From contig JACJJN010000027.1 of NCBI GenBank assembly GCA_016899975.1, positions 1-44,803 on the forward strand: a stretch of DNA of 44,803 nucleotides, written 5' to 3'. Numbering within the stretch: position 1 is the first letter of the stretch; the number at the start of each line of letters is the position of its first letter. This document shows positions 22,435 through 34,624 of this stretch, piece by piece. Made by a program: the position numbers and the translations under genes. The notes beneath the pieces are model-generated. The model saw only the letters and a list, made by a program, of their open reading frames with translations. It made no database searches and was not told where the DNA came from. The stretch is from Lacrimispora saccharolytica (lineage in GTDB: Bacteria; Bacillota; Clostridia; Lachnospirales; Lachnospiraceae).

Positions 22435-23736
22435 TTAGCAATTTCCATTGTTTTCAGCCGCAAAAACCGCTGCGCCGGCTGCTGCTTCTTCCTCGTACCT
22501 GGAGAACGTAACCGGAAGCTCAAAGGCTTTCTCCATTTCCTGGCAAAGCAGCGGATTTTTGCGCAAACCATTTCCCGAAGCGGTAAGACTTTCACGTCCC
22601 TGTTTTATTTCCTTTGGGAATACTTCATACAGCGCTTTCAATTCCGATGCCATCCCCCGCAGATAACTGCGTATCATATCGGCAGGATGAAAGTTATCAC
22701 TGTTGAGTCCATCCCACCCGGACCTTCCTGGCTTTCCCCCACGGGCTCCATAAAGATTCGGGTATGCTTTCAAGTCTGTGTCCTCTTTCTCCATGGCAAT
22801 TTCCTGCATTTTGGCATATATGTCCGGTTTTTCACCTGTAAACTGCTCACATACTTCCCCGAAGAAAGCGGCAAGCCTCTCATATACCTTTCCTCCGTTC
22901 AAGGATGCACCCACATACAAATAACCGCCCCCTGGAAAAGGCCGCACGTCTGTACCATTTTCCATACACGCCACGCAAAGTTCTGGGGAATAGACGGAAA
23001 CCTGGGATCCGGTTCCCACATTGATCCCTATGCTTTTTTCCGGTTCGGAAACTGCTCCCAGAAAGCTCGCCTGATTATCTCCGATTGCCGAAAAAACTTT
23101 CTTTCCCTTATAGTAACCGACGAACTCATGATACGGACATATTTCCGGATAAAACAACACATCAACTCCGGCTTTTTTCAGCGCATCATGATCAAAACAT
23201 CTGTTTTCCAGGTCATACCCTCCAAAACTTGCCGCGATGCTTTCGTTGACCGCCCGCCGCACACTTCCGGTCAAACGCATCGCGAGATAGTCACCAATAT
23301 CCACAAATCCCTCCGCATCCGCAGGAAGTGCACCGGTCTTCTGCAGATAAAAGTGAGTGACGCTCCCATATCCGGTGTATAACGGATATCCGGTAATCCG
23401 GGACAGGTACCCGGCATACGTTTCCTTCTCATCCAAAGGCTGATTGCCGCTTTCTTCCTTCCATGTATAGAACGGTGACACCGCCTCGCCTTTCCCATTC
23501 ACATACACAATCCCATGCATCTGGCTGGAAATGCCGATCGCCTCAAACGGAAGCTCTTCCATTTCTTCCAGCAGCCGGCTTACTTTTGATACAATCTCAT
23601 CTGCATCCTGCCAAAAACTTCCCTGTGCCAGAAATCTGTTTGAAACATTTCTGCTCAAAGCAATCGTTCTGTTTTTCACATCATACAGCACGATACAGAT
23701 AGAGGTGGTTCCTATATCAATTCCAAGTGTGTACAT
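22435..23736 (-). CDS. FGGY-family carbohydrate kinase (sedoheptulokinase-like)
   Basis: 433 residues. The actin-like ATPase pattern starts with LGIDIGTTSICIVLYD, followed by GISSQMHGIVYVN, the substrate-side DIGDYLAMRLTG, the phosphate 2 motif GINVGTGSQVS, and the adenosine region LTASGNGLRKNPLL. It phosphorylates a sugar or polyol; its length (shorter than the ~500-residue xylulokinases) and the SQMHGI/NVGTGSQ patterns resemble sedoheptulokinase-type members, but the substrate is uncertain. ATG 23736 follows GGAGG. Own promoter at 23827-23855 and a hairpin terminator on each side, so it is a single-gene unit downstream of dsdA. Confidence 0.87.
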   Translation of the reverse strand: MYTLGIDIGTTSICIVLYDVKNRTIALSRNVSNRFLAQGSFWQDADEIVSKVSRLLEEMEELPFEAIGISSQMHGIVYVNGKGEAVSPFYTWKEESGNQPLDEKETYAGYLSRITGYPLYTGYGSVTHFYLQKTGALPADAEGFVDIGDYLAMRLTGSVRRAVNESIAASFGGYDLENRCFDHDALKKAGVDVLFYPEICPYHEFVGYYKGKKVFSAIGDNQASFLGAVSEPEKSIGINVGTGSQVSVYSPELCVACMENGTDVRPFPGGGYLYVGASLNGGKVYERLAAFFGEVCEQFTGEKPDIYAKMQEIAMEKEDTDLKAYPNLYGARGGKPGRSGWDGLNSDNFHPADMIRSYLRGMASELKALYEVFPKEIKQGRESLTASGNGLRKNPLLCQEMEKAFELPVTFSRYEEEAAAGAAVFAAENNGNC

Positions 23737-23884: not shown

Positions 23885-23932
23885 ATACCCTCAGAGTACA
23901 GAAATCCCTTTCTCCCTGTACTCTGAGGGTAT
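23885..23932. terminator. Duplicated hairpin terminator, copy 2 (after dsdA)
   Basis: A perfect 17-bp stem (23885-23901 with 23916-23932), then TTTGTTTTG on the minus strand, which suits termination after dsdA. Near-identical to the hairpin at 22332-22375. Confidence 0.75.
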
Positions 23933-23981
23933 CCGTTTTATGAAGATTGTCATTTACAAAAGCAGCGCAGTATTGTGCCGT

Positions 23982-25316
23982 TTATTTTCCATCAAGCGCC
24001 GCGCAGTATTCCTCCCGCACCTCTTTCGGAACCATGCTTCCTCCTGTTGCCCACACGATATGTACCGCCTGTTCCATACAGTTCTCCAGTCCGTTTTCCT
24101 TCAGATACTGCTCAAATTCCTGCGTTCCTGCAAGACTTACCGGCCCCTGAAATCCGGCACAGGCACTGGGCTCCAGAAAAATATCCTGGGAATCCAGAAG
24201 GTCTTTCATATATCGGTACAATTTCTCATCTTCCACGGTAACTTCACCGCTGAGAAGCGGCCCCATCACTTTTCCCACAAAAGCGGAAGGCCGTCCCACG
24301 GCAAGACCGTCTGCCTGGGTCTTTCCGGTCAGTCCTACATCTTCCACGGAGATTTCATTGTGAAGCCCGGTAGCCATTCCCAGAAGCATACAGGGCGCCT
24401 GTACCGGTTCCGCAAAGAAACAGTGGACATGATCCCCGTAGATCTGCTTCAGCCCAAAGCTGATGCCTCCCGGAGCTCCTCCGATCCCACAGGGAAGATA
24501 GACAAAGAGCGGATGCTCCCGGTCCACGGTGATTCCTTTTTCCTGAAGCTGCGCCTGCAGCCGTTTCCCTGCAACCGCATATCCGAGAAACAGATTCTGA
24601 GAGTTTTCATCGTCAACAAAATAGCTCTTTTGATCCTGCTCAGAAAGCTGCCTTCCCTGCTTCACCGCCTCCCCGTAATCGGACATATACTCTCTCACAT
24701 CCACACCGTAGCTTCGCAGAAGATCCTTTTTCCACTGTTTTGCGTCCATGGACATATGTACAATCACACGATATCCCAGAACGGCGCTGATGATACCGAT
24801 GCTCAGTCCGAGATTGCCCGTGGAACCTACCTGTATGGTATAGTCTCCGAAAAATTTCCTTTTTTCCTGATCGCCCAGAGCCGCATAGCTTTCCGCCGGC
24901 TGGAGAAGTCCGTGGCTCAGCGCCAGTTCTTCCGTATGTTTCAAAACCTCATAGATTCCGCCCCGCGCTTTCACCGAACCGGCAATCGCCAGGCTGCTGT
25001 CTTCTTTCAAAAACAGTCTTCCTCTGAGCGGTTTCCCGTACCTTCCTTCCAGAACCTCTTTCATCCCGGAGATTTCTGTGAGCGGGGATTCGATGATCCC
25101 ACCCTGTTCTCTGGTTTCCGGGAAATATTTCATGATCAGCGGAGCGAACCGGACCAGCCGCTCTTCCGCATCCCTGATATCTTCCTCAGTCAGAGGAAAC
25201 GTGTTTTTTGCTTCCTCAAAAGGGATTTTTCCGGGATTCATCCATACGACTTCTTTCCCTTCACTGAGCCTCTTCAGGCAGGGATTTTGTTCCATCAGAT
25301 ATTCCAAATTTTCCAT
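23982..25316 (-). CDS. dsdA: D-serine ammonia-lyase (D-serine dehydratase)
   Basis: PLP enzyme of fold type II that converts D-serine to pyruvate and ammonia. 444 residues, the normal DsdA length. Diagnostic segments are LFLKEDSSLAIAGSVKARGG with PLP Lys116, the phosphate-binding loop VGSTGNLGLS, VHMSMDAKQWKKDLLR, and YLPCGIGGAPGG. These distinguish it from threonine dehydratase and diaminopropionate ammonia-lyase. ATG 25316 follows GGAAAGAGGAAAG. Last gene of the operon that starts at 30110, 33 nt after the ureohydrolase gene. This is an unusual context: no DsdX permease or DsdC regulator is present. Confidence 0.93.
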   Translation of the reverse strand: MENLEYLMEQNPCLKRLSEGKEVVWMNPGKIPFEEAKNTFPLTEEDIRDAEERLVRFAPLIMKYFPETREQGGIIESPLTEISGMKEVLEGRYGKPLRGRLFLKEDSSLAIAGSVKARGGIYEVLKHTEELALSHGLLQPAESYAALGDQEKRKFFGDYTIQVGSTGNLGLSIGIISAVLGYRVIVHMSMDAKQWKKDLLRSYGVDVREYMSDYGEAVKQGRQLSEQDQKSYFVDDENSQNLFLGYAVAGKRLQAQLQEKGITVDREHPLFVYLPCGIGGAPGGISFGLKQIYGDHVHCFFAEPVQAPCMLLGMATGLHNEISVEDVGLTGKTQADGLAVGRPSAFVGKVMGPLLSGEVTVEDEKLYRYMKDLLDSQDIFLEPSACAGFQGPVSLAGTQEFEQYLKENGLENCMEQAVHIVWATGGSMVPKEVREEYCAALDGK

Positions 25317-25349
25317 GCTTTCCTCTTTCCTGACGCACCTGCTGCGTCA

Positions 25350-26318
25350 TCAAGGTAGATTTGGAAGTTTACTTCCAAACTTTTTCCTCCAGGCAATATG
25401 TGACATAAATTCCTGAATCAATCCTGCCGCCGCAATAGATGTGATCCCACTGTCGTCAAAGGAAGGAGCTACCTCCACCAGGTCGTATCCAACGATATCC
25501 AGATCCTTCAGCCCCCGCACCAATTCCAGCGCTTCCCAGGTGGAAAATCCTCCCGGCACCGGCGTCCCTGTTCCCGGAGCAAACGCCGGATCCAGAAAGT
25601 CGATATCAAAGGTAAGGAATACCTTCTTTCCTCTGGTTCTCTCATGGATCAGACGGATGATCTCCTCCAGGGTACTCCTGCGCATCTCGGAGGCAGTCAG
25701 AGACAGATATCCGAGTTTCGAGGAATTTTCCTTATCCTCAGCGCCGTAAAGACCTTCCCGGATTCCCAGCTGGATGGAACAGGACGTGTCCACCAGTCCT
25801 TCTTTCGCCGCGTGATAAAATGGAGTTCCGTGACTGTAGGGCTTGCCGAAATATTCAGAGATCGTGTCATAATGGGCATCAAAGTGCACCAGAGCCACTG
25901 GCCCGTAGACCGCGCTGCAGGCTCTCAGTTCCGGCAGAGTCACACTGTGATCTCCTCCTATGGCGATCGGTATTACTCCACGGGAAAAAAGCTCCTGCAT
26001 CTCCTGCTGAATGATCTCAAACGATTCCTCCACATAACCGGGGACAGATCCCAGATCACCGTAGTCCACCCCGGAACACTCCTGAAAAATATCCACTTCA
26101 AGGCTTGGGTTATAGGGTTTTGCCGCCAGAGAAGACATTTCCCGGACGGACGCGGGGCCAAACCTGGAACCGCCCCGATAGGTGGCACAGGTATCAAAAG
26201 GAATCCCAACCACCGCAAAATCAACATCCTCAACGACTCTTGCGTTCTGCATTCTCATAAATGTTTTCACGCCTGCAAATCTCGGCGATTTCAGAGAATT
26301 TACTGTTCCATATTTCAT
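25350..26318 (-). CDS. speB: Ureohydrolase (agmatinase/arginase family)
   Basis: 322 residues. The binuclear manganese site is complete: GGDHS with His124, HFDAHYD with Asp147/His149/Asp151, and FDIDFLDPAFAPGTGTP with Asp238/Asp240. Members hydrolyse guanidino compounds (agmatine, guanidinobutyrate, guanidinopropionate, arginine-like substrates) to urea and an amine. The motifs favour the agmatinase branch, yet true specificity is open, so the symbol is tentative. It is co-transcribed with an ABC importer of the polyamine-like class and with dsdA. That suggests catabolism of an imported guanidino compound rather than polyamine biosynthesis; no speA arginine decarboxylase is nearby. Confidence 0.85.
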   Translation of the reverse strand: MKYGTVNSLKSPRFAGVKTFMRMQNARVVEDVDFAVVGIPFDTCATYRGGSRFGPASVREMSSLAAKPYNPSLEVDIFQECSGVDYGDLGSVPGYVEESFEIIQQEMQELFSRGVIPIAIGGDHSVTLPELRACSAVYGPVALVHFDAHYDTISEYFGKPYSHGTPFYHAAKEGLVDTSCSIQLGIREGLYGAEDKENSSKLGYLSLTASEMRRSTLEEIIRLIHERTRGKKVFLTFDIDFLDPAFAPGTGTPVPGGFSTWEALELVRGLKDLDIVGYDLVEVAPSFDDSGITSIAAAGLIQEFMSHIAWRKKFGSKLPNLP

Positions 26319-26336
26319 ATTGTTCTTTTCCCTCTA

Positions 26337-27344
26337 TTATAATCTGATACAGTTGTGGTCCGCAACGGAAATCCGGATTCTGGTTCCGTCTTCAAATAAG
26401 ACTTTGCTCCGGAACAGTACGTCCACTTTCACTCGGATCCCATTGACATCCACATGGTACTGAAGCACATTTCCCTTCGGTGTATTGTCTGTGATCACAC
26501 CCTCAAAAACATATTCCGCCTCCGGTGTCTTTCCATCGGAAATCTGAAGTGTCTCCGGCCGGATGGCGATTCCTTCCGGCGAAGAAATCCTGCGTCCGGT
26601 CATCTGCTCAAACTCCTGCTCCGTAAGAATGTTATAATTGCCAATGAACGCAGCGGCAAATTTGCTCACCGGGGAAGTGTACATGGTGATCGGATCGCTG
26701 GACTGTTCGATTTTTCCTTCATGGAACAGATGGATCGTGTCAGACATTACCATCGCCTCATCCTGATCATGGGTGACAAAGATTGAGGTAAGCCCCAGCT
26801 CTTTATGCACCTGCTTGATACTGTTCTGCAGAGATTTTCTCAGCTTTGCGTCGATCGCGCTCAAAGGCTCATCCAGAAGCAGAACCTTCGGTTCCTGGAC
26901 AATGCTTCTCGCCAGAGCCACCCTCTGCTGCTGCCCGCCGGACAGATTATCCGGGTACTGCTTTTCTTTTCCGGTCAGTTCCACCATCTCCATGGCCTGC
27001 TTGACTTTCCGGGCAATCTCATCCTTTGGTTTCTTTTTCATTTTCAGCCCGAAAGCAATATTTTCTTCCACGGTCATATTGGGGAACAGACTGTAGTGCT
27101 GGAACACCATTCCGATATTTCTGTCCTTTGGCTCCAGATCTGTGATATCCTTTCCATCCATAATGATCTGACCGGAAGAAATGTCCTCCAGTCCGGAAAG
27201 ACAGCGCAAAAGGGTACTCTTCCCGCAGCCCGAAGGTCCCAGCAGAGTTACAAACTGGCCCTTCTCCACATTCAGGCTGATATCTTTCAGCACCTGGTTG
27301 TCTCCATAAAATTTATTGATATTCTTAAACTCGATATAAGACAT
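26337..27344 (-). CDS. ABC transporter ATP-binding protein (PotA/FbpC-like)
   Basis: 335 residues. Walker A GPSGCGKST at 36-44, Q-loop region MVFQHYSLFPNMTV, signature LSGGQQQR, Walker B VLLLDEPLSAID, H-loop FVTHDQDEA. A C-terminal TOBE-like domain (about 240-335) is typical of polyamine, iron, thiamine and phosphonate importers. ATG 27344 follows AGGAGAGG. It is 6 nt from the upstream permease gene and powers the importer encoded by the next three genes. Confidence 0.93.
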   Translation of the reverse strand: MSYIEFKNINKFYGDNQVLKDISLNVEKGQFVTLLGPSGCGKSTLLRCLSGLEDISSGQIIMDGKDITDLEPKDRNIGMVFQHYSLFPNMTVEENIAFGLKMKKKPKDEIARKVKQAMEMVELTGKEKQYPDNLSGGQQQRVALARSIVQEPKVLLLDEPLSAIDAKLRKSLQNSIKQVHKELGLTSIFVTHDQDEAMVMSDTIHLFHEGKIEQSSDPITMYTSPVSKFAAAFIGNYNILTEQEFEQMTGRRISSPEGIAIRPETLQISDGKTPEAEYVFEGVITDNTPKGNVLQYHVDVNGIRVKVDVLFRSKVLFEDGTRIRISVADHNCIRL

Positions 27345-27350
27345 CTGGAT

Positions 27351-28142
27351 TTACCTCTCCTTCTTTTTATCTTTCTGCAGTCCGAAAACTCCCAGAGAAA
27401 TCAGCAAAGTCACAACGAACAGCACCACGATCACCGCGCTCGCCTGCTGACCGGACTGCCGCATCGCCGCGTACAGATACATCTGGCCGGTCGGAAAATA
27501 ATTGCCTGCAAGGGTATTGATAATTACAAAATCACCGAACACAATGGACAGCGCAAGCATCGCCGAAACCATCACACCGCTGGCGATGTTCGGCAGGATG
27601 ATCTTCCAGAAGGCATAAAACCTGCCGGCTCCCAGCATCTGAGCAGCCTCCAGAAGCCTTGGCGCATGCACGGCGTTCAGATTGTTCCGGACGCCCTGAT
27701 AAATGTAGGGCAGAACCACGATGCAGTAAGTGCACACCAGCATGAACACCCGGTTGGAAAATGGTTCCGGTGCATTGGCATACAGCCCCAAAACACTGAT
27801 TGGAAGGATGACTCCCTGGATTGCGTAAGGGATCGTGCAGATCGTCCTCATGATCTTGTCAAGTCCCGGAAGATAAACCACAACCACATACATGGCAAGC
27901 AGAACCGCCACGGTACAGATGGCAATAGGTACGATGGATATCACAATGGAACGTCCGATGGACTGCCAGAAATAACTGTCCTGAAACAGTTCCACATAGG
28001 CTCTCAGTGAAAAACCCTCCGGCAGGATTGTGATCCACTCTGTAAAAAGCGAGTACAAAAATGTCAGCAGCAGCGGAAACAGAAGATAAATTCCAATGAT
28101 CACCAGGATGATTCCGTTTCCGATTCCTTTTTTCTTACGCAT
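27351..28142 (-). CDS. ABC transporter permease (second subunit, PotC-like)
   Basis: 263 residues with six transmembrane helices and the EAA loop (LEAAQMLGAGRFYAFWKIILPNI). Start ATG 28142 follows AGGAGG and overlaps the stop of the preceding permease by 8 bp (ATGCGTAA), so the two are translationally coupled. An upstream ATG (28178) lies within the other gene and is less likely. Confidence 0.92.
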   Translation of the reverse strand: MRKKKGIGNGIILVIIGIYLLFPLLLTFLYSLFTEWITILPEGFSLRAYVELFQDSYFWQSIGRSIVISIVPIAICTVAVLLAMYVVVVYLPGLDKIMRTICTIPYAIQGVILPISVLGLYANAPEPFSNRVFMLVCTYCIVVLPYIYQGVRNNLNAVHAPRLLEAAQMLGAGRFYAFWKIILPNIASGVMVSAMLALSIVFGDFVIINTLAGNYFPTGQMYLYAAMRQSGQQASAVIVVLFVVTLLISLGVFGLQKDKKKER

Positions 28143-28989
28143 GATGTTTCCTCCTGTTTCCCTGCAAGATTTTTTCATTGATCACAATGGAAAGGACCAT
28201 CAACAGCATCAGCACAACTGCCAGAGCCCCGCCCAGCTGAGGATTCTGCACCACATCTCCCACAAACTGTTCCGAAATACGGATCGGCAGAATGGAAAGA
28301 TTGTTCATGACCAGCGCGTAGGCTGTGGCATAAGCGGAGATCGCATTGGCAAACATCGTAGAGAAGGTTCCCAGGATACTCGGCATAAGGACGGGAAGCC
28401 CTACCTTGAACCAGAAGATTCGGTTGGTGCCGCCCAGCAGCCCTACCGCGTCCTTCCATTCCTTTTTGATCGACTCAAACGCCGGGATCAGAAGCAGCGC
28501 GGAAAGGGGAAGCTGGAAATAAATGTACGTGATCATCAGGCCCACTACAGAATACAGCGGAAACTCCGCCAGAAATCCGATGCCCAGCTTCTGTCCGATC
28601 AGAGTGAACACGCCGGTGTTGCCCAGCATGATAATGTATGCAAATGCCAGAGGCACTCCCGAAAAATTGGAGACCATATTGAGAATACTCATAAAGATCT
28701 TCTTCGCTCTTCCGCCTTTTTCGTAGGCTGCCTTGGCACCGAAGAAGGCCACGGCAAGACCGATGACGGAAGAACAGACTGCGATAAACAGGCTGTTGAC
28801 GATCGCCGACTGATAGAGCTTCGTTGTAAAGATCCGTGTGTAATTTTCCAAAGTCACTCCGATTCCACCGCCCTGAGGCATAAAGCTGCGGATCACGATG
28901 GAAATAACAGGTACGATCTCAAACAGCCCCACCAGAAGTAGGAACGGCAGCAGCGCGAACAGATACTTTTTCGTCTGTTTCTTTTTCAT
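28135..28989 (-). CDS. ABC transporter permease (first subunit, PotB-like)
   Basis: 284 residues with about six transmembrane helices and an EAA loop (WKDAVGLLGGTNRIFWFKVGLP). It forms the membrane channel with the second permease. The gene lies 11 nt after the binding-protein gene. ATG 28989 follows a GGAGAA site. Confidence 0.92.
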   Translation of the reverse strand: MKKKQTKKYLFALLPFLLLVGLFEIVPVISIVIRSFMPQGGGIGVTLENYTRIFTTKLYQSAIVNSLFIAVCSSVIGLAVAFFGAKAAYEKGGRAKKIFMSILNMVSNFSGVPLAFAYIIMLGNTGVFTLIGQKLGIGFLAEFPLYSVVGLMITYIYFQLPLSALLLIPAFESIKKEWKDAVGLLGGTNRIFWFKVGLPVLMPSILGTFSTMFANAISAYATAYALVMNNLSILPIRISEQFVGDVVQNPQLGGALAVVLMLLMVLSIVINEKILQGNRRKHHA

Positions 28990-29000
28990 GGTTGTTCTCC

Positions 29001-30110
29001 TTACTGGGCATATGCCATAACTTCTTCATTCCAAAGGGTCGGCAGCTGTGATACGGTCTCCTCCCACGCATCCGCGTCTTCGACCATTTTTACATTGGTA
29101 TACTGGTCATCCGGAATCATTTTTGCTTCCAGATCCGCAGGCAGTTCCACATCACGGACCGTTCTTGCATATCCCTTTGCCAGATTCAGCTGTCCCTCGT
29201 CACTCAAGATATACTCTCTTGTCAGAGCTGCCGCGTGCGGTCTCTTGGTATACGCATTGATGATCGTTGTATACCCGCTCTGTACGGATCCTTCCTCAGG
29301 AATACAGATTTCAAAGTCTGCGTCCGGATTATTTTCCTTGATCTGCTCTCTGTATCCGATTCCTACGAAATCCCAGATGATTGCTACTCCGATCTCACCT
29401 TTCTCAATTCGGCCCAGAGTAAATTCTCCTTTATCCAGTCTACCCTGCTCCGCCAGCTGTCGGAAGAAATCAAGACCCGGCTGAATGTTGCTCTCATCTC
29501 CGCCCATCGCGTAGGCAGCAGCCAGAACCGCATACTGAGCTCTTGTGGATCTTGCCACATCACCGATGGATACCACATAATCTCCTTCCAGAAGATCCTG
29601 GAAAGAAGTCGGCGCTTCAGGAACCAGCTTCTTGTTTGTCAGCAGCGCCATCGTTCCGTAATATGCCACGATCCAGTCTCCGTCATCGTCCTTCGCCCAA
29701 TCCGGAATCTCATCCCAGTAACTCGTCTTATATTTCAGCGTCAGTCCCTGCTCTTCCGCCACGGCTCCGTAGGTCTCTCCCACATCACCGATATCTTTCG
29801 TCGCATTGTTCTTTTCTGTCTCAAACATCGAAAGCTCTTCCGCGGAGGAAAGATCCACATCTGTGTGTTCCAGTCCGTAAGTCTCTTTCAGCCCTGCCCA
29901 GGTGTCGTCCCAGTTGGCCCAGTCATCCGGCATACCAACGGAATTTACTTCTCCTTCTTCCTGTGCTTTTGCAACAATCTCATCCAGCGACAGACTGTTC
30001 AGGTCCACCTGTTCTGCCGTTGTACTTCCTGATCCGCCGCAGCCGGACAGGACCGTCACAGCTGTCAAAACCAACGCGGTTAGTCTCGTAATTTTCGATT
30101 TTCTTTTCAT
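29001..30110 (-). CDS. Extracellular solute-binding lipoprotein of the ABC importer
   Basis: 369 residues. Signal peptide with lipobox TVLSGC (Cys24), so it is tethered to the outer face of the membrane. The periplasmic-binding-protein type II fold of the PotD/FbpA group shows in WIVAYYGTMALLTNKK, SFQDLLEGDYVVSIGD, IGVAIIWDFVGIGY and AYTKRPHAAALTREYILS. The group binds polyamines, iron, thiamine or phosphonates; the ligand here is unknown. A neighbouring ureohydrolase points to a cationic guanidino compound. ATG 30110 follows AGGAGG. First gene of the operon, with a MerR-type dyad about 65 nt upstream. Confidence 0.92.
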   Translation of the reverse strand: MKRKSKITRLTALVLTAVTVLSGCGGSGSTTAEQVDLNSLSLDEIVAKAQEEGEVNSVGMPDDWANWDDTWAGLKETYGLEHTDVDLSSAEELSMFETEKNNATKDIGDVGETYGAVAEEQGLTLKYKTSYWDEIPDWAKDDDGDWIVAYYGTMALLTNKKLVPEAPTSFQDLLEGDYVVSIGDVARSTRAQYAVLAAAYAMGGDESNIQPGLDFFRQLAEQGRLDKGEFTLGRIEKGEIGVAIIWDFVGIGYREQIKENNPDADFEICIPEEGSVQSGYTTIINAYTKRPHAAALTREYILSDEGQLNLAKGYARTVRDVELPADLEAKMIPDDQYTNVKMVEDADAWEETVSQLPTLWNEEVMAYAQ

Positions 30111-30174
30111 AATGATACCTCCTGATTTTCATCGTCTTGTTCTTTATTCTGTCTCAAGTTCTCTTTCACCTTAA

Positions 30175-30195
30175 AACTTTGTGCCACACAAAGTT
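30175..30195. promoter_or_regulatory. Perfect MerR-type dyad upstream of the importer operon
   Basis: AACTTTGTG at 30175-30183 and CACAAAGTT at 30187-30195 form a perfect 9-3-9 inverted repeat. On the minus strand a weak -35 (TAGAAC) and -10 (TAAGGT) can be placed with a 19-bp spacer around it, the long spacer typical of MerR-activated promoters. The MerR gene lies just upstream. Confidence 0.7.
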
Positions 30196-30244
30196 CTACC
30201 CGAAAATCTGTTAAAAATTGTAAAATCCTGGAAAACTGCAAACA

Positions 30245-30306
30245 AAAGTCCTGAAATCAGAGAACACGGATTGAAACGTGTTTTCCAATTTCAGGACTTC
30301 TTTTTG
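30245..30306. terminator. Terminator after the MerR gene
   Basis: AAGTCCTGAAAT (30246-30257) pairs with ATTTCAGGACTT (30288-30299), a 12-bp stem with an inner weaker hairpin. T runs follow in both directions (TTTTTG on plus, TTTTGTTTG on minus). It separates the MerR unit from the importer operon. Confidence 0.75.
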
Positions 30307-30323: not shown

Positions 30324-31145
30324 CTAAACGACAGGAATCTGAAGTTCCATGACTGTTTCCTCCGCATTGCTGGTAAGCGTCACATCCACTTTGTAAATCT
30401 GAAGGATCTTTCCATGGATCCGGTACTTCTTATCTCTGATATAACTTTTGATCTTCTCAAACGAAGGATGATATTTTTCGAGAATTCCATTTCTGTAATA
30501 CATGCACACATATTTCCCTCCCGGAATTTTCTGCAGATAAGATTCCTCTGCATTCTTCGGGGATACCAACAGCATCGGAACCGCCGGGATCAATTCCTCG
30601 CTGGGTATCAGGAGTCTTTCATCCGCAAAAACACCGACACGGTCGCTGGCAAGGATCGGAATCTCTTCCTTGATATAACTTTCCAGTTTTGTAAACGCCA
30701 TGGCGTGCTCTTCTCTGTCGCCCGCCTCTCTTCCAAAAGTCACAATATGCCGGACCGGAAATTCCTTTTCAAAAACAGTTTCCATTTCCGGAAGAGAGGA
30801 CAGATTATCCAGAAACTCCAGCTTCTGCAGCAGGATTTCATTCAGATGTATCTGTTCCTGCAGATTTTTTTCAAATTCTTCCTGATACTTTTTCAGCATC
30901 TGATAGGACTTCTCAAAATTTCTGTTATTAAAATACTCCTGAATTTCTTTTAGAGACATTCCTATCTTTTTCAATTCCAGAATCGTCCCAAGCCGCTCAT
31001 ACTGACGGATGGAATAATACCGATGTCCGCTCTCTGAAATATGATCCGGCTTCAGCAGGCCGATCCGGTCATAATGCCGCAAAGTCTCACTGGTAATCTG
31101 TTTCAGTTTCGCCAGTTCCGTAATGGTTAACACATATCGTGCCAT
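30324..31145 (-). CDS. MerR-family regulator with GyrI-like effector domain (BmrR-type)
   Basis: 273 residues. The N-terminal winged helix-turn-helix carries TITELAKLKQITSETLRHYD and DRIGLLKPD with a following HRYYSIRQYERL. A coiled coil spans about 78-120, and a GyrI-like ligand-binding domain covers about 121-273. This layout is that of BmrR-type activators that untwist long-spacer promoters when a cationic or hydrophobic ligand binds. ATG 31145 is 17 nt downstream of the PHP gene. The best candidate target is the dyad at 30175-30195 before the ABC-ureohydrolase-dsdA operon; the effector would then be the imported compound or a product. Confidence 0.9.
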   Translation of the reverse strand: MARYVLTITELAKLKQITSETLRHYDRIGLLKPDHISESGHRYYSIRQYERLGTILELKKIGMSLKEIQEYFNNRNFEKSYQMLKKYQEEFEKNLQEQIHLNEILLQKLEFLDNLSSLPEMETVFEKEFPVRHIVTFGREAGDREEHAMAFTKLESYIKEEIPILASDRVGVFADERLLIPSEELIPAVPMLLVSPKNAEESYLQKIPGGKYVCMYYRNGILEKYHPSFEKIKSYIRDKKYRIHGKILQIYKVDVTLTSNAEETVMELQIPVV

Positions 31146-31162: not shown

Positions 31163-32143
31163 TCATAAAAACAAAGGATTCGACCACGCGGTCTTTCCGT
31201 GCGCATCGATACATTCCACCCGAAGATACTGTTCATTTCCCTTCAGGGGGAACTCCGCCCGAACCACAGACTGCTGTCCTTCTTTCACGAGTACTGTTCC
31301 CCCGGCATTGATATAATTTCCGGCAATAAAGTTCACCCGGCTTACCTGGCTGCATTCCACATAAGCCACATTGTCCCGGATGCCCCAATCATAGATTTCC
31401 GGGCCTGTACTGGAATAATAATTTCCATTCAGAATTGACCGTATCACTGCATCATGCTCCAGGGAATCTGCTTTTACAACAATATATCCTCCGAAACTGT
31501 CCTCGATCTTTCCATCGTTGTGATTATCGTCGGAAGCAGTCGCGTTAATCTTTATCCCTTTGCGGAGCATGATATCCCAGTGAACCGTATCAAATCCCGT
31601 TCCGCTTTCATTTTCCGTTCCGTAATTATAAATCTCCAGACCGGTAAGCCCCTTGATGTTGACAAACTCTTCTTCTCTCACTCTCGACCACACGGGATGA
31701 TTATATACCGTGACGCATCCGTGATCTTCCAGATCCTGCGCAAGCTCCTGGCCGACTTTTCCGCCATCCCACGATCCGTAAAAGATTCGCGGCGGATACT
31801 TCTCCAGATGGGCAAAGGTACCCTTTTTCGCATTCTTCTGCATGTCCTCCGTCCCGAGAATGCCATGTATATGATGCACGCACAGACGATCCGTTTTCTC
31901 CCTGTCCTTATACAGCACCGCGGATGCCTCGATCGCCGGCAGAACAATAAAGTCTTCTGCATTCAGTTCTCCCCGGTAATCAGAATAAAGATCATGATCA
32001 CTGATCGCCAGAAAGCTGTATCCATTTTCTTTATAAAACTTTACAACCTCCTGCGGCTTCAGGCATCCGTCCGAATTTGTTGTATGACAATGGATGTTTC
32101 CTTTATACCAGTTTCCTGTCTCGGTAAATCCATTCCTGTTCAT
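31163..32143 (-). CDS. PHP-domain phosphoesterase family protein
   Basis: 326 residues, no signal peptide. The PHP metal site is visible: NIHCHTTNSDG (His18, His20), AISDHD (Asp49-His50-Asp51), Glu72 in LPAIEAS, HHIHGI, YNHPVW, and a later SDDNH. The last ~90 residues look like a beta-sandwich. Such proteins are phosphoesterases (histidinol-phosphatase-like, or nucleotide 3',5'-bisphosphate types). The substrate is unknown. Only 17 nt before the MerR gene, so possibly part of the same pathway and unit. Confidence 0.85.
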   Translation of the reverse strand: MNRNGFTETGNWYKGNIHCHTTNSDGCLKPQEVVKFYKENGYSFLAISDHDLYSDYRGELNAEDFIVLPAIEASAVLYKDREKTDRLCVHHIHGILGTEDMQKNAKKGTFAHLEKYPPRIFYGSWDGGKVGQELAQDLEDHGCVTVYNHPVWSRVREEEFVNIKGLTGLEIYNYGTENESGTGFDTVHWDIMLRKGIKINATASDDNHNDGKIEDSFGGYIVVKADSLEHDAVIRSILNGNYYSSTGPEIYDWGIRDNVAYVECSQVSRVNFIAGNYINAGGTVLVKEGQQSVVRAEFPLKGNEQYLRVECIDAHGKTAWSNPLFL

Positions 32144-32220: not shown

Positions 32221-33144
32221 TTATTCTGTATTTTCCGTACCCTCTATCTTGTCTCTGTAAAATTCCCGTAAATTTCCTGTATCTTTTTCTGTCTGCAGAG
32301 GATTCTTTCTATTTCTGTAAGTTCCCGGACTCATTCCCATATACCGCCGGAACACCTTGCCGAAATAATTTCCGCTGGAAAATCCATTTTCTCTGGCAAT
32401 ACATTCCACACTTTTTTCCGTCCCCAGCAGATCATTCATCGCCGACTGAATCTTCAGCCGTGTCAGGAATTCAATGGGGGAAACTCCCATTTCGTTCCGG
32501 AAGCAGCGAGACAGATGCGCGGGAGAGACCCCCAGCTGCCCGGCTGCCTCCTCAATCCCCTGAATCACCGGATAACGCTCTTTCATATACTCCGCCGCTT
32601 TCCCCGCCAGAGAATCTTTCAGCGGTTTCCCCGGACGTTCCACCTCCCGCAGAAGCGCGCAGAGAAAGCGGTAAAGAAATTCTCCGCCTTCATATTTTTC
32701 CAGCCGTTCTTTTCCGATCAATCGTTCCTGAAGATTCAGTGCCATCCGCACCGGCACGCTTCCCGGATCCAATTCGATCAGTTCGGGACAGAGCGCTGCC
32801 AGTTTATCCGCGAAAGCATCCGCAGCGTTTCCCTCAAAATGAAGATAAAGAAATTCCCAGACAGCTCCCGGCTCATCCGGAAGACAATACCGGCTTTCCT
32901 CCGGAAAACGCACGAAAAAGCCGCTTCCCTTCTTTACAAGGCATTCTCTGCCATTTCGGACAAACAAACCTTCGCCCCGCAGCGTATACTGAAACAGAAA
33001 TCCTCCATACTCTGTCCGATTCCCGTTATAAAAATCATAGGTTTCCCCACATCTGCATTCGATTCCGCCGTCCAGCAGGACCAAAGGCTCATTCTCCATT
33101 TCATCCATGTTCAGAACACCGAACAATCCCTCTCTGTATTCCAT
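32221..33144 (-). CDS. AraC-family regulator with cupin-like sensor domain
   Basis: 307 residues from ATG 33144 (a TTG precedes it in frame), after AAAGGGG. The N-terminal cupin-like arm domain (FQYTLRGEGLF, KKGSGFFVRFPEE) is typical of sugar-responsive regulators. The C-terminal double helix-turn-helix shows GIEEAAGQLGVSPAHLSRCF and VECIARENGFSSGNYFGKVF. It is divergent from the GH27 alpha-galactosidase at 33293 with about 150 bp between, so it very likely controls that gene. A good minus-strand promoter serves the regulator itself. Confidence 0.92.
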   Translation of the reverse strand: MEYREGLFGVLNMDEMENEPLVLLDGGIECRCGETYDFYNGNRTEYGGFLFQYTLRGEGLFVRNGRECLVKKGSGFFVRFPEESRYCLPDEPGAVWEFLYLHFEGNAADAFADKLAALCPELIELDPGSVPVRMALNLQERLIGKERLEKYEGGEFLYRFLCALLREVERPGKPLKDSLAGKAAEYMKERYPVIQGIEEAAGQLGVSPAHLSRCFRNEMGVSPIEFLTRLKIQSAMNDLLGTEKSVECIARENGFSSGNYFGKVFRRYMGMSPGTYRNRKNPLQTEKDTGNLREFYRDKIEGTENTE

Positions 33145-33199
33145 CAAAAAATTACCCCTTTAAATCAAATTTTCATTCTTTCCTGCCAATATTAATCCA

Positions 33200-33292: not shown

Positions 33293-34624
33293 ATGAACAA
33301 AAATACTTTTGCCAAACATCCGCCGATGGGCTGGAACAGTTACGATTATTACGACACTACCGTCAATGAAGCCCAGGTGCGAGCAAACGCTGAATATATG
33401 GCAGAACATCTGAAAGAATACGGATGGGAGTATGTGGTCATCGATATTGAATGGTACGCACACAAAGCCGGTTCTCAGAGGGACCGTTTCCAGTACATTC
33501 CCTTTTCTCAGTTGGAAATGGACGAATATTCCCGTCTTCTCCCCGAGCCGGAACGTTTCCCATCTTCCGCTGACGGAAAAGGCTTTGGTCCGCTGGCTGA
33601 ATATATCCACAGCCTGGGACTGAAATTCGGTATCCACATCATGCGGGGAATTCCGCGGATCGCCGCCCATCTCCACACACCGGTCAAAGGAACCTCCGTG
33701 ACCGCCGACCAGATCGCCAACCCCAGTTCCATCTGCGGCTGGAATCCGGATATGTACGGCGTGCGCAATACGCCGGAGGGGCAGGCTTACTACGATTCTC
33801 TGTTGGAACTGTACGCCTCCTGGGGCGTGGATTTCATCAAATGCGATGACATCTGCAATACGAATCTCTATCCCAACGATCCGTTTTCCGGGCGTCATGA
33901 GATCGAAATGCTTGCGAAAGCCATCCAGCGCTGCGGCAGGTTCATCGTACTTTCCCTGTCTCCGGGACCGGCGCTGATCGAACATGCATGGCATTATGAG
34001 AAATATGCGAATATGTGGCGGATCACTGATGATTTCTGGGATCACTGGGATTTGCTGAAAGATATGTTCCATCGATGTGAACTGTGGCAGAACCACGTCT
34101 CCGAAGGATGCTGGCCCGACTGCGATATGCTGCCTCTTGGAACGCTTGGAAAAGGATTCGGGGAGGAACGCGCCACACGGTTTACTCCTGAGGAACAGAA
34201 GACAATGATGACACTGTGGTGCATCTTCGGATCTCCGATGATGCTGGGCGCGGAGCTGACCCTGCTGGATCAGGAGACCCTGGCGCTGCTGACCAACCGG
34301 GAGGTCCTCCATCTGCTGAATTCCGACTGTCATGCCAGACAGGTACGTCTGGATGACGACTGTGCAGTCTGGACAGCCAGGGACACAAAAACAGGAGACG
34401 TTTATGCTGCTCTGTTTAATCTCAGTGATGAGACAGCCACTGTATCCGTACAGCTGGAAGAGCTGACGGAAACCTTCGGACTCTCCGAAAACGATGGGGA
34501 TTCCACCGTTTCCGTAACACTCTATGACCTCTGGAGCGGCTGTGACACAAACACAACGGGAACCACTCTTCAGTCAGAACTGGCTGCCCACTCATGTGTG
34601 ATCTGGAAAATCCTCAGACACTGA
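33293..34624 (+). CDS. GH27 alpha-galactosidase (melibiase family)
   Basis: 443 residues, no signal peptide, so cytoplasmic. Clan-D barrel: N-terminal PPMGWNSYDYY, the nucleophile in DFIKCDD (Asp185), and the acid/base in the R-x-x-x-D motif RITDDFW (Arg243...Asp247). A C-terminal beta-sandwich follows from about 350. It should hydrolyse alpha-galactosides such as melibiose or raffinose-type sugars; other GH27 activities (alpha-N-acetylgalactosaminidase, isomaltodextranase, beta-L-arabinopyranosidase) cannot be excluded. ATG 33293 follows AAGGAGG. Single gene, divergent from its probable AraC regulator. Confidence 0.93.
   Translation: MNKNTFAKHPPMGWNSYDYYDTTVNEAQVRANAEYMAEHLKEYGWEYVVIDIEWYAHKAGSQRDRFQYIPFSQLEMDEYSRLLPEPERFPSSADGKGFGPLAEYIHSLGLKFGIHIMRGIPRIAAHLHTPVKGTSVTADQIANPSSICGWNPDMYGVRNTPEGQAYYDSLLELYASWGVDFIKCDDICNTNLYPNDPFSGRHEIEMLAKAIQRCGRFIVLSLSPGPALIEHAWHYEKYANMWRITDDFWDHWDLLKDMFHRCELWQNHVSEGCWPDCDMLPLGTLGKGFGEERATRFTPEEQKTMMTLWCIFGSPMMLGAELTLLDQETLALLTNREVLHLLNSDCHARQVRLDDDCAVWTARDTKTGDVYAALFNLSDETATVSVQLEELTETFGLSENDGDSTVSVTLYDLWSGCDTNTTGTTLQSELAAHSCVIWKILRH

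Follow-up and report, generated by a model that had tools for sequence, protein, structure and literature searches.

The DNA analysed here, a 44,803-nt stretch of Lacrimispora saccharolytica (contig JACJJN010000027.1; hereafter the window), carries on its minus strand genes for an ABC importer with its solute-binding protein (SBP), a ureohydrolase, the D-serine ammonia-lyase DsdA, a MerR-family regulator and a metallohydrolase of the PHP type. Their order is PHP-MerR, a hairpin, a MerR-type promoter, SBP-permease-permease-ATPase-ureohydrolase-DsdA and a second hairpin. A preliminary description of the window had claimed a six-gene operon on one strand with gaps of -8 to +33 nt, and its gene order and intergenic distances, the neighbouring MerR and PHP genes and the dyad were all confirmed: successive genes from SBP to DsdA are separated by 11, -8, 6, 18 and 33 nt, and the MerR-PHP intergenic distance is 17 nt. 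Because strong hairpins lie 3' of both MerR and DsdA, the layout suggests two transcription units, PHP-MerR and SBP-to-DsdA. The features are as follows.

31163..32143, minus strand: PHP metallohydrolase (CehA/McbA type), proposed to act as a phosphodiesterase and to free D-serine or its phosphate; NF038032 match and structural model
30324..31145, minus strand: MerR-family regulator; PF13411, BmrR structures matched over most of its length
30244..30306, minus strand: terminator-like hairpin 3' of MerR, ahead of the operator; -31 kcal/mol, z -8.6
30168..30198, minus strand: MerR-type promoter recognised by eye, with -35 TAGAAC (30198-30193), a 19-bp spacer containing the operator, and -10 TAAGGT (30173-30168)
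30175..30195, minus strand: MerR operator, a 9-3-9 dyad; dyad sequence and conservation
29001..30110, minus strand: SBP, lipoprotein solute-binding protein (SBP_bac_6) of the importer; Pfam match, closest structure 5t1p
28135..28989, minus strand: permease 1; PhnU2, sulfate, thiamine and polyamine permease models, all below cut-off
27351..28142, minus strand: permease 2 (BPD_transp_1); Pfam match, 8 nt shared with permease 1, an in-frame ATG also at 28178, upstream of the called start
26337..27344, minus strand: importer ATPase with TOBE domain; top matches PhnT2 and PotA, both below cut-off
25350..26318, minus strand: ureohydrolase (arginase family), proposed to act on a guanidinoethyl group and release urea and an ethanolamine moiety; family models, tree and structures
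23982..25316, minus strand: DsdA, D-serine ammonia-lyase; TIGR02035, structures 3r0x and 3ss7
23885..23940, minus strand: terminator-like hairpin 3' of DsdA; -33.2 kcal/mol, z -8.8

The gene set is not unique to this strain, a case that the preliminary description had named as damaging to its proposal. It recurs in five genera (G000, G615, G381, G351 and G618) and in further records; here G numbers denote genomes of a 397-genome sample of the bacterial family of the window, and L numbers denote fetched loci, for which neighbour-gene counts were taken from a tblastn table (L037, L038, L039 and L048 duplicate, by length and content, the contigs of L057, L056, L063 and L060, and each was counted once). 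The ureohydrolase is a member of the arginase/ureohydrolase superfamily (PF00491, 4.8e-84). The metal-binding motifs of these enzymes, GGDH, DAHxD and DxD, appear as GGDHS, DAHYD and DIDF and are invariant in an alignment of four rows. When entries of the PDB were ranked, a guanidinobutyrase came first, two agmatinase entries next and a guanidinopropionase fourth, with phmmer values of 3.9e-70 and 5e-62 for the guanidinobutyrase/3-guanidinopropionase structures 3nio and 3nip. No polyamine gene was found among the scanned neighbours. A second ureohydrolase of the same genome, 32% identical, adjoins genes for spermidine synthase (speE) and carboxynorspermidine decarboxylase (nspC), as well as a 486-aa neighbour without a family match at 1e-20. 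Judged by sequence and context, the window ureohydrolase is not the polyamine-linked agmatinase of this strain.

Within the family sample, ureohydrolase matches were present in 11 of 397 genomes (E ≤1e-60), six of them at 67% identity or more, and a search of viral contigs gave no match. A wider scan of a species-genome collection with four of the importer-associated ureohydrolases found 243 relatives; among the best 80 of these, 19 showed 65-89% identity, the next one 43%. These 19 loci, the window and L159 formed a set of 21 rows, divided into type A (importer genes present; the window, L056, L057, L058, L059, L060, L062, L063 and L074) and type B (importer genes absent; 12 rows). Type A forms a single clade (100/99) within a joint clade of both types (99/98). 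Type B ureohydrolases lie near a choline/ethanolamine-kinase-type gene in nine of the 12 rows, MerR in seven, EutH in five, EutB in four and an SsuA-type SBP in four, as counted by tblastn, with family checks on selected members. L070 has an EutA match in addition, and in L159 the Eut genes and the kinase are divergent from MerR and the ureohydrolase. Since the relatives of this urea-releasing enzyme sit with genes for ethanolamine use, it probably acts on a derivative of guanidinoethanol and yields ethanolamine as the amine. A variant of the human guanidino acid hydrolase is reported to accept guanidinoethanol poorly (PMC9772407). A few observations on single loci may be added. We considered L065 as a taurocyamine system and rejected it, as its alcohol dehydrogenase scores 147 against a sulfoacetaldehyde reductase cut-off of 700. 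More distant ureohydrolases in L011 and L012 (49-57%) lie near another ABC-type importer and urease-like genes, labelled from sequence starts, which is likely a urea-harvesting arrangement, and L072:5157-6077 encodes a second ureohydrolase, 34% identical, within the region that holds a type B set.

Both types are connected by a regulatory site. The preliminary description had stressed a perfect MerR-type dyad ahead of the importer genes. This dyad, AACTTTGTG-CCA-CACAAAGTT at 30175-30195, is present and conserved; as evidence by itself its perfection was rejected, since perfect inverted repeats with 9-nt arms and a spacer of 0-8 nt are not rare in the window (11, some nested, whereas 10 shuffles gave 0-3 apiece). 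What gives the dyad weight is its conservation across loci. The core TTTGTGNNNCACAAA, allowing at most one mismatch, occurs at seven sites in the nine type A loci (0.7 expected), at 15 sites in the 12 type B loci (0.7 expected) and at one site in 15 other loci (1.3 expected), in a scan that left out L055 and L148-L157. Among type A loci, only L062 and L074 have no site, and in both the MerR-SBP region is missing; the sole site outside both types belongs to L040 of genome G359, whose MerR gene lies on another contig. Eight of the type B sites precede the ureohydrolase, five the kinase-EutH genes, one the SsuA-type SBP of L067 and one another gene of L064. Inspected by eye, the homologous sites lie between TTGAC-like and TAT-like hexamers with a 19-bp spacer; the hexamers of the window, TAGAAC and TAAGGT, are weaker. 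The regulator combines a PF13411 DNA-binding domain with an operator inside a 19-bp spacer, as expected of a MerR-family activator, and its description as BmrR-type agrees with the match of BmrR structures over most of its length. Relatives with at least 53% identity were found in four of a subset of 112 family genomes, each adjoining a PHP gene, and a fifth at 36%. From this comparison of sequences, the dyad is a conserved MerR operator common to importer/DsdA operons and ureohydrolase/Eut operons.

The importer points to phosphodiesters. SBP was present in 20 of 397 family genomes (E ≤1e-20), and the neighbourhoods of the 19 others were fetched. Four are of the window type (G615, G381, G618 and G351), and one (G359) is broken by a contig end inside the importer. 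In the remaining 14 loci, the gene directly after the ATPase encodes a PHP protein in nine, a GDPD protein in three and neither in two (L053 and L055). GDPD of L051, L052 and L054, EutA of L051 and EutB of L051 and L054 were confirmed by Pfam; EutA of L054 and EutC of L051 and L054 are tblastn matches. Because PHP or GDPD follows the ATPase in 12 of 14 loci, the importer family, read from gene order, is one that travels with phosphodiesterases and in two cases also with ethanolamine ammonia-lyase. L051 and L054, of the same bacterial family, have the order importer-GDPD-EutA-EutB-EutC and are candidate operons for glycerophosphoethanolamine uptake and ethanolamine use. The closest solved structure to SBP is 5t1p from C. 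jejuni (phmmer 3.2e-119; Foldseek 51% identity), which we take to be the product of gene Cj0727 and whose title names no ligand. At 1e-5, SBP has two matches only in NCBIfam, both to 2-aminoethylphosphonate binding proteins and far below cut-off, and permease 1 has no Pfam match at the same threshold. For the AlphaFold model of SBP (predicted local distance difference test, pLDDT, 89), the next-best solved SBPs after 5t1p are STM0429, presumably the 2-aminoethylphosphonate binder PhnS, and AfuA, a hexose-phosphate binder. As evidence this ranking is weak, because 1297 chains match at E ≤0.001, including metal, thiamine and polyamine binders.

By family model, DsdA is a D-serine ammonia-lyase: it scores 639.5 bits over its full length against the TIGR02035 equivalog cut-off of 368.25 and aligns end to end with the D-serine dehydratase structures 3r0x and 3ss7. 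The DsdA proteins of L160, L063 and L148 pass the same cut-off, and DsdA occurs in 48 of 397 family genomes. PHP was found in 33 of the 397 (E ≤1e-50). Its NF038032 (CehA/McbA) score of 80.0 bits is borderline to the domain cut-off of 80, three homologues score below it (79.5, 75.6 and 69.5), and the window protein has no Pfam match at 1e-5. Its model (pLDDT 90) matches PHP phosphoesterases, and in 20 rows the metal residues H50, E72, H90, H149, D205 and H208 are invariant, while H18, H20 and D25 are kept in at least 90%.

PHP is present in seven of the nine type A rows; the contig of L059 begins just ahead of MerR, and L074 is decayed. A complete DsdA occurs in five rows, as a separate gene in the window, L057 and L058 and fused in L062 and L063, and in L056 the ureohydrolase frame continues into a DsdA start at the contig end. 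In L062, L063 and L148, DsdA and PHP share one open frame, called at 805, 776 and 775 aa; PHP, which the preliminary description had mentioned in passing as fitting a phosphodiester substrate, thus proves a core part of the system. The fused PHP halves nest with the importer-PHP loci L042 and L044 (100/97), apart from the PHP of the window, while the fused DsdA halves group with the DsdA of the window (93/88, moderate), and for this reason PHP has probably been exchanged while its combination with DsdA persisted. The DsdA of L160, which lies between the contig end and PHP-MerR, has a very long branch in the tree. L060 retains PHP-MerR-ureohydrolase, and its SBP groups with the importer-PHP locus L049 (91/96, moderate). 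These exchanges of parts speak for one shared pathway. With respect to gene loss, G283 and G514 (L149 and L150) have lost the cluster by deletion, with DsdA remaining in both, and the neighbourhood of L074 resembles that of the DsdA-PHP fusion of L148.

Gene order, family membership, the operator with its spacer, conservation, the fusion and the urease genes of the genome (UreA, UreB, UreC and UreG above cut-off, UreE below) are seen in the sequence itself, and the system is real and conserved. From these we infer the substrate, every reaction and their order, the MerR ligand and the ecology. We give about an even chance to the reading that the window encodes an inducible operon for uptake and breakdown of a guanidinoethyl-phospho-D-serine diester, for which lombricine (or a relative of it methylated on nitrogen) is the likeliest candidate, because a guanidinoethyl group, a phosphodiester and D-serine together make up that molecule. 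Lombricine is a phosphagen, an energy-buffer molecule of earthworms. It is given as guanidinoethyl-seryl-phosphate, its serine being the D form in most annelids and the L form in echiuroids, with thalassemine as a methylated relative (PMC6429109). High concentrations are expected in earthworms, for which it is listed at 78 on a scale with a top compound at 100 (PMC2424032). The lipoprotein and the ABC importer would bring the diester into the cell, where the ureohydrolase would strip urea from the guanidino end and leave an ethanolamine-phospho-D-serine diester. PHP would then split the phosphodiester, DsdA would convert the freed D-serine to pyruvate and ammonia, and the urea would pass to the cell's own urease. 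If PHP acted first, the ureohydrolase product would be ethanolamine or its phosphate. MerR may bind the compound or a product of it and activate the promoter by the usual untwisting of the 19-bp spacer. Comparative genomics lends support to the proposal of the preliminary description, which had put forward import and stripping of a guanidino compound yielding D-serine, with lombricine as an example.

Several observations weigh against this reading. The ureohydrolase passes two agmatinase models, and G359 combines importer pieces, DsdA, PHP and MerR with no ureohydrolase match (both points are taken up below). The genome in which ethanolamine would be released has no EutB. No ethanolamine gene, kinase, SsuA-type SBP or MerR was found in the type B loci L065 and L073, where one side is cut by a contig end and the other shows about 10 kb, or in L068, with about 2 kb visible on each side. 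A tyrosine at the position of guanidinopropionase Y157 and guanidinobutyrase M161, a position that sets chain length, is present in all 21 rows; it was rejected as a mark of the clade, since the outgroups L005 and L006 carry it as well. PHP is likely a phosphodiesterase, an activity assigned by family. No DsdA lies near L059 and L060, the genome of the latter having one on another contig, and L059 also lacks the permeases and the ATPase: in L059:1303-3402, the ureohydrolase follows directly after SBP, by deletion or assembly error. L074:5491-7155 is a decayed remnant that retains the ATPase for the most part, a portion of permease 2 and a ureohydrolase without its first 126 residues; it is counted among the nine type A rows but ends in the ureohydrolase and is uninformative on PHP or DsdA. 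A PHP stub beside DsdA in L150 and DsdA alone in L149 were rejected as independent evidence and regarded as deletion remnants, their matches to L058 and L057 breaking at the ureohydrolase 3' end. With regard to ecology, chicken appears in the record titles of just two type A loci, L059 and L062, and a worm diet is an assumption.

Part of the same evidence could be accommodated without any single molecule carrying both groups, if importer and PHP handled common phosphodiesters of small size, for example glycerophosphoethanolamine or serine ethanolamine phosphodiester, and the ureohydrolase acted on free guanidinoethanol under the same regulator. This would agree with the many importer-phosphodiesterase loci without ureohydrolase or DsdA (12 of 14), with type B ureohydrolases that exist without an importer, and with G359, in which importer pieces, DsdA, PHP and MerR are present (L040 and L160) and no ureohydrolase match was obtained at E ≤1e-60, a contig break lying where one could sit. 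We nevertheless consider it unlikely, as one operator heads a single run of importer, ureohydrolase and DsdA in the window, L057, L058 and L063, and the type A ureohydrolases form one clade. The substrate might also be a guanidino phosphodiester other than lombricine, for example a microbial or plant metabolite of animal guts, as the carriers belong to several records, most of them without a worm-eating host in the title; in the literature searched we came across no further natural compound that has both ends, thalassemine being given as a methylated relative of lombricine (PMC6429109), and regard this as quite unlikely.

On family models alone, the ureohydrolase would be called an agmatinase: it passes two NCBIfam agmatinase cut-offs, among them TIGR01230 (SpeB type) with 220.8 bits versus 174.3. 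It could accordingly be suspected that an ordinary agmatinase is combined with a polyamine importer and that DsdA, attached by chance, serves D-serine detoxification, the more so as PotA and PhnT2 are both similar to the ATPase, below cut-off in either case, and polyamine binders turn up further down among the fold matches of SBP. We judge this very improbable in view of the ureohydrolase adjoining the spermidine synthase genes of the same genome and of a gene set that several genera have kept, with a fusion, an exchange of PHP and an operator in common. The preliminary description had itself reckoned with a standard agmatinase and with an importer for an unrelated ligand; what was found is a polyamine-linked enzyme elsewhere in the genome (32%), close relatives that sit with ethanolamine genes, and an importer family tied to phosphodiesterases.

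This catabolic system is probably so far undescribed. No bacterial breakdown pathway for lombricine, guanidinoethanol or serine ethanolamine phosphodiester was found in the literature searched, most subscription papers being outside it, and this silence is a weak sign of novelty. With a confidence slightly short of even, we propose a first genetic system degrading an invertebrate phosphagen, by which gut Lachnospiraceae would import lombricine from ingested annelids and sister bacteria would use the same ureohydrolase and MerR switch to channel guanidinoethanol into ethanolamine metabolism. If this is true, functions would be gained for a ureohydrolase clade that passes agmatinase models, for a PHP family and for the ABC importer family related to 5t1p, a structure with no ligand assigned, and gut microbes would be able to exploit an animal phosphagen as a source of carbon, nitrogen and perhaps phosphorus. 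The regulator-operator pair makes the lombricine question directly testable.

The genes around the cluster show other affinities. An FGGY-family sugar kinase (22435-23736), below every specific NCBIfam cut-off, lies just past the hairpin after DsdA. On the other side, a minus-strand AraC-type regulator (32221-33147) is divergent from a plus-strand ORF of 443 aa (33293-34624), which is alpha-galactosidase-like by eye and has no NCBIfam match at 1e-20; both probably form a separate sugar locus.

Compared with known systems, the window most resembles in its importer the importer-GDPD-Eut loci L051 and L054, which we read as glycerophosphodiester uptake and ethanolamine use: SBP, permeases and ATPase are homologous and a phosphodiesterase adjoins them, whereas the window has PHP instead of GDPD, and ureohydrolase and DsdA instead of Eut genes. 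The ureohydrolase shares family and metal motifs with the guanidinobutyrase/3-guanidinopropionase enzymes (3nio and 3nip) and the tyrosine with guanidinopropionase, but its context indicates ethanolamine, and not an amino acid, as the product. In E. coli, D-serine utilisation involves DsdA with DsdX and DsdC. The DsdA equivalog is common to both systems; however, neither DsdX nor DsdC was seen beside the DsdA of the window, and D-serine would arise intracellularly from the diester. Finally, the regulator is similar to BmrR-type MerR activators over most of the protein, in the 19-bp spacer and in the central dyad, but it would control a catabolic operon and not multidrug efflux.

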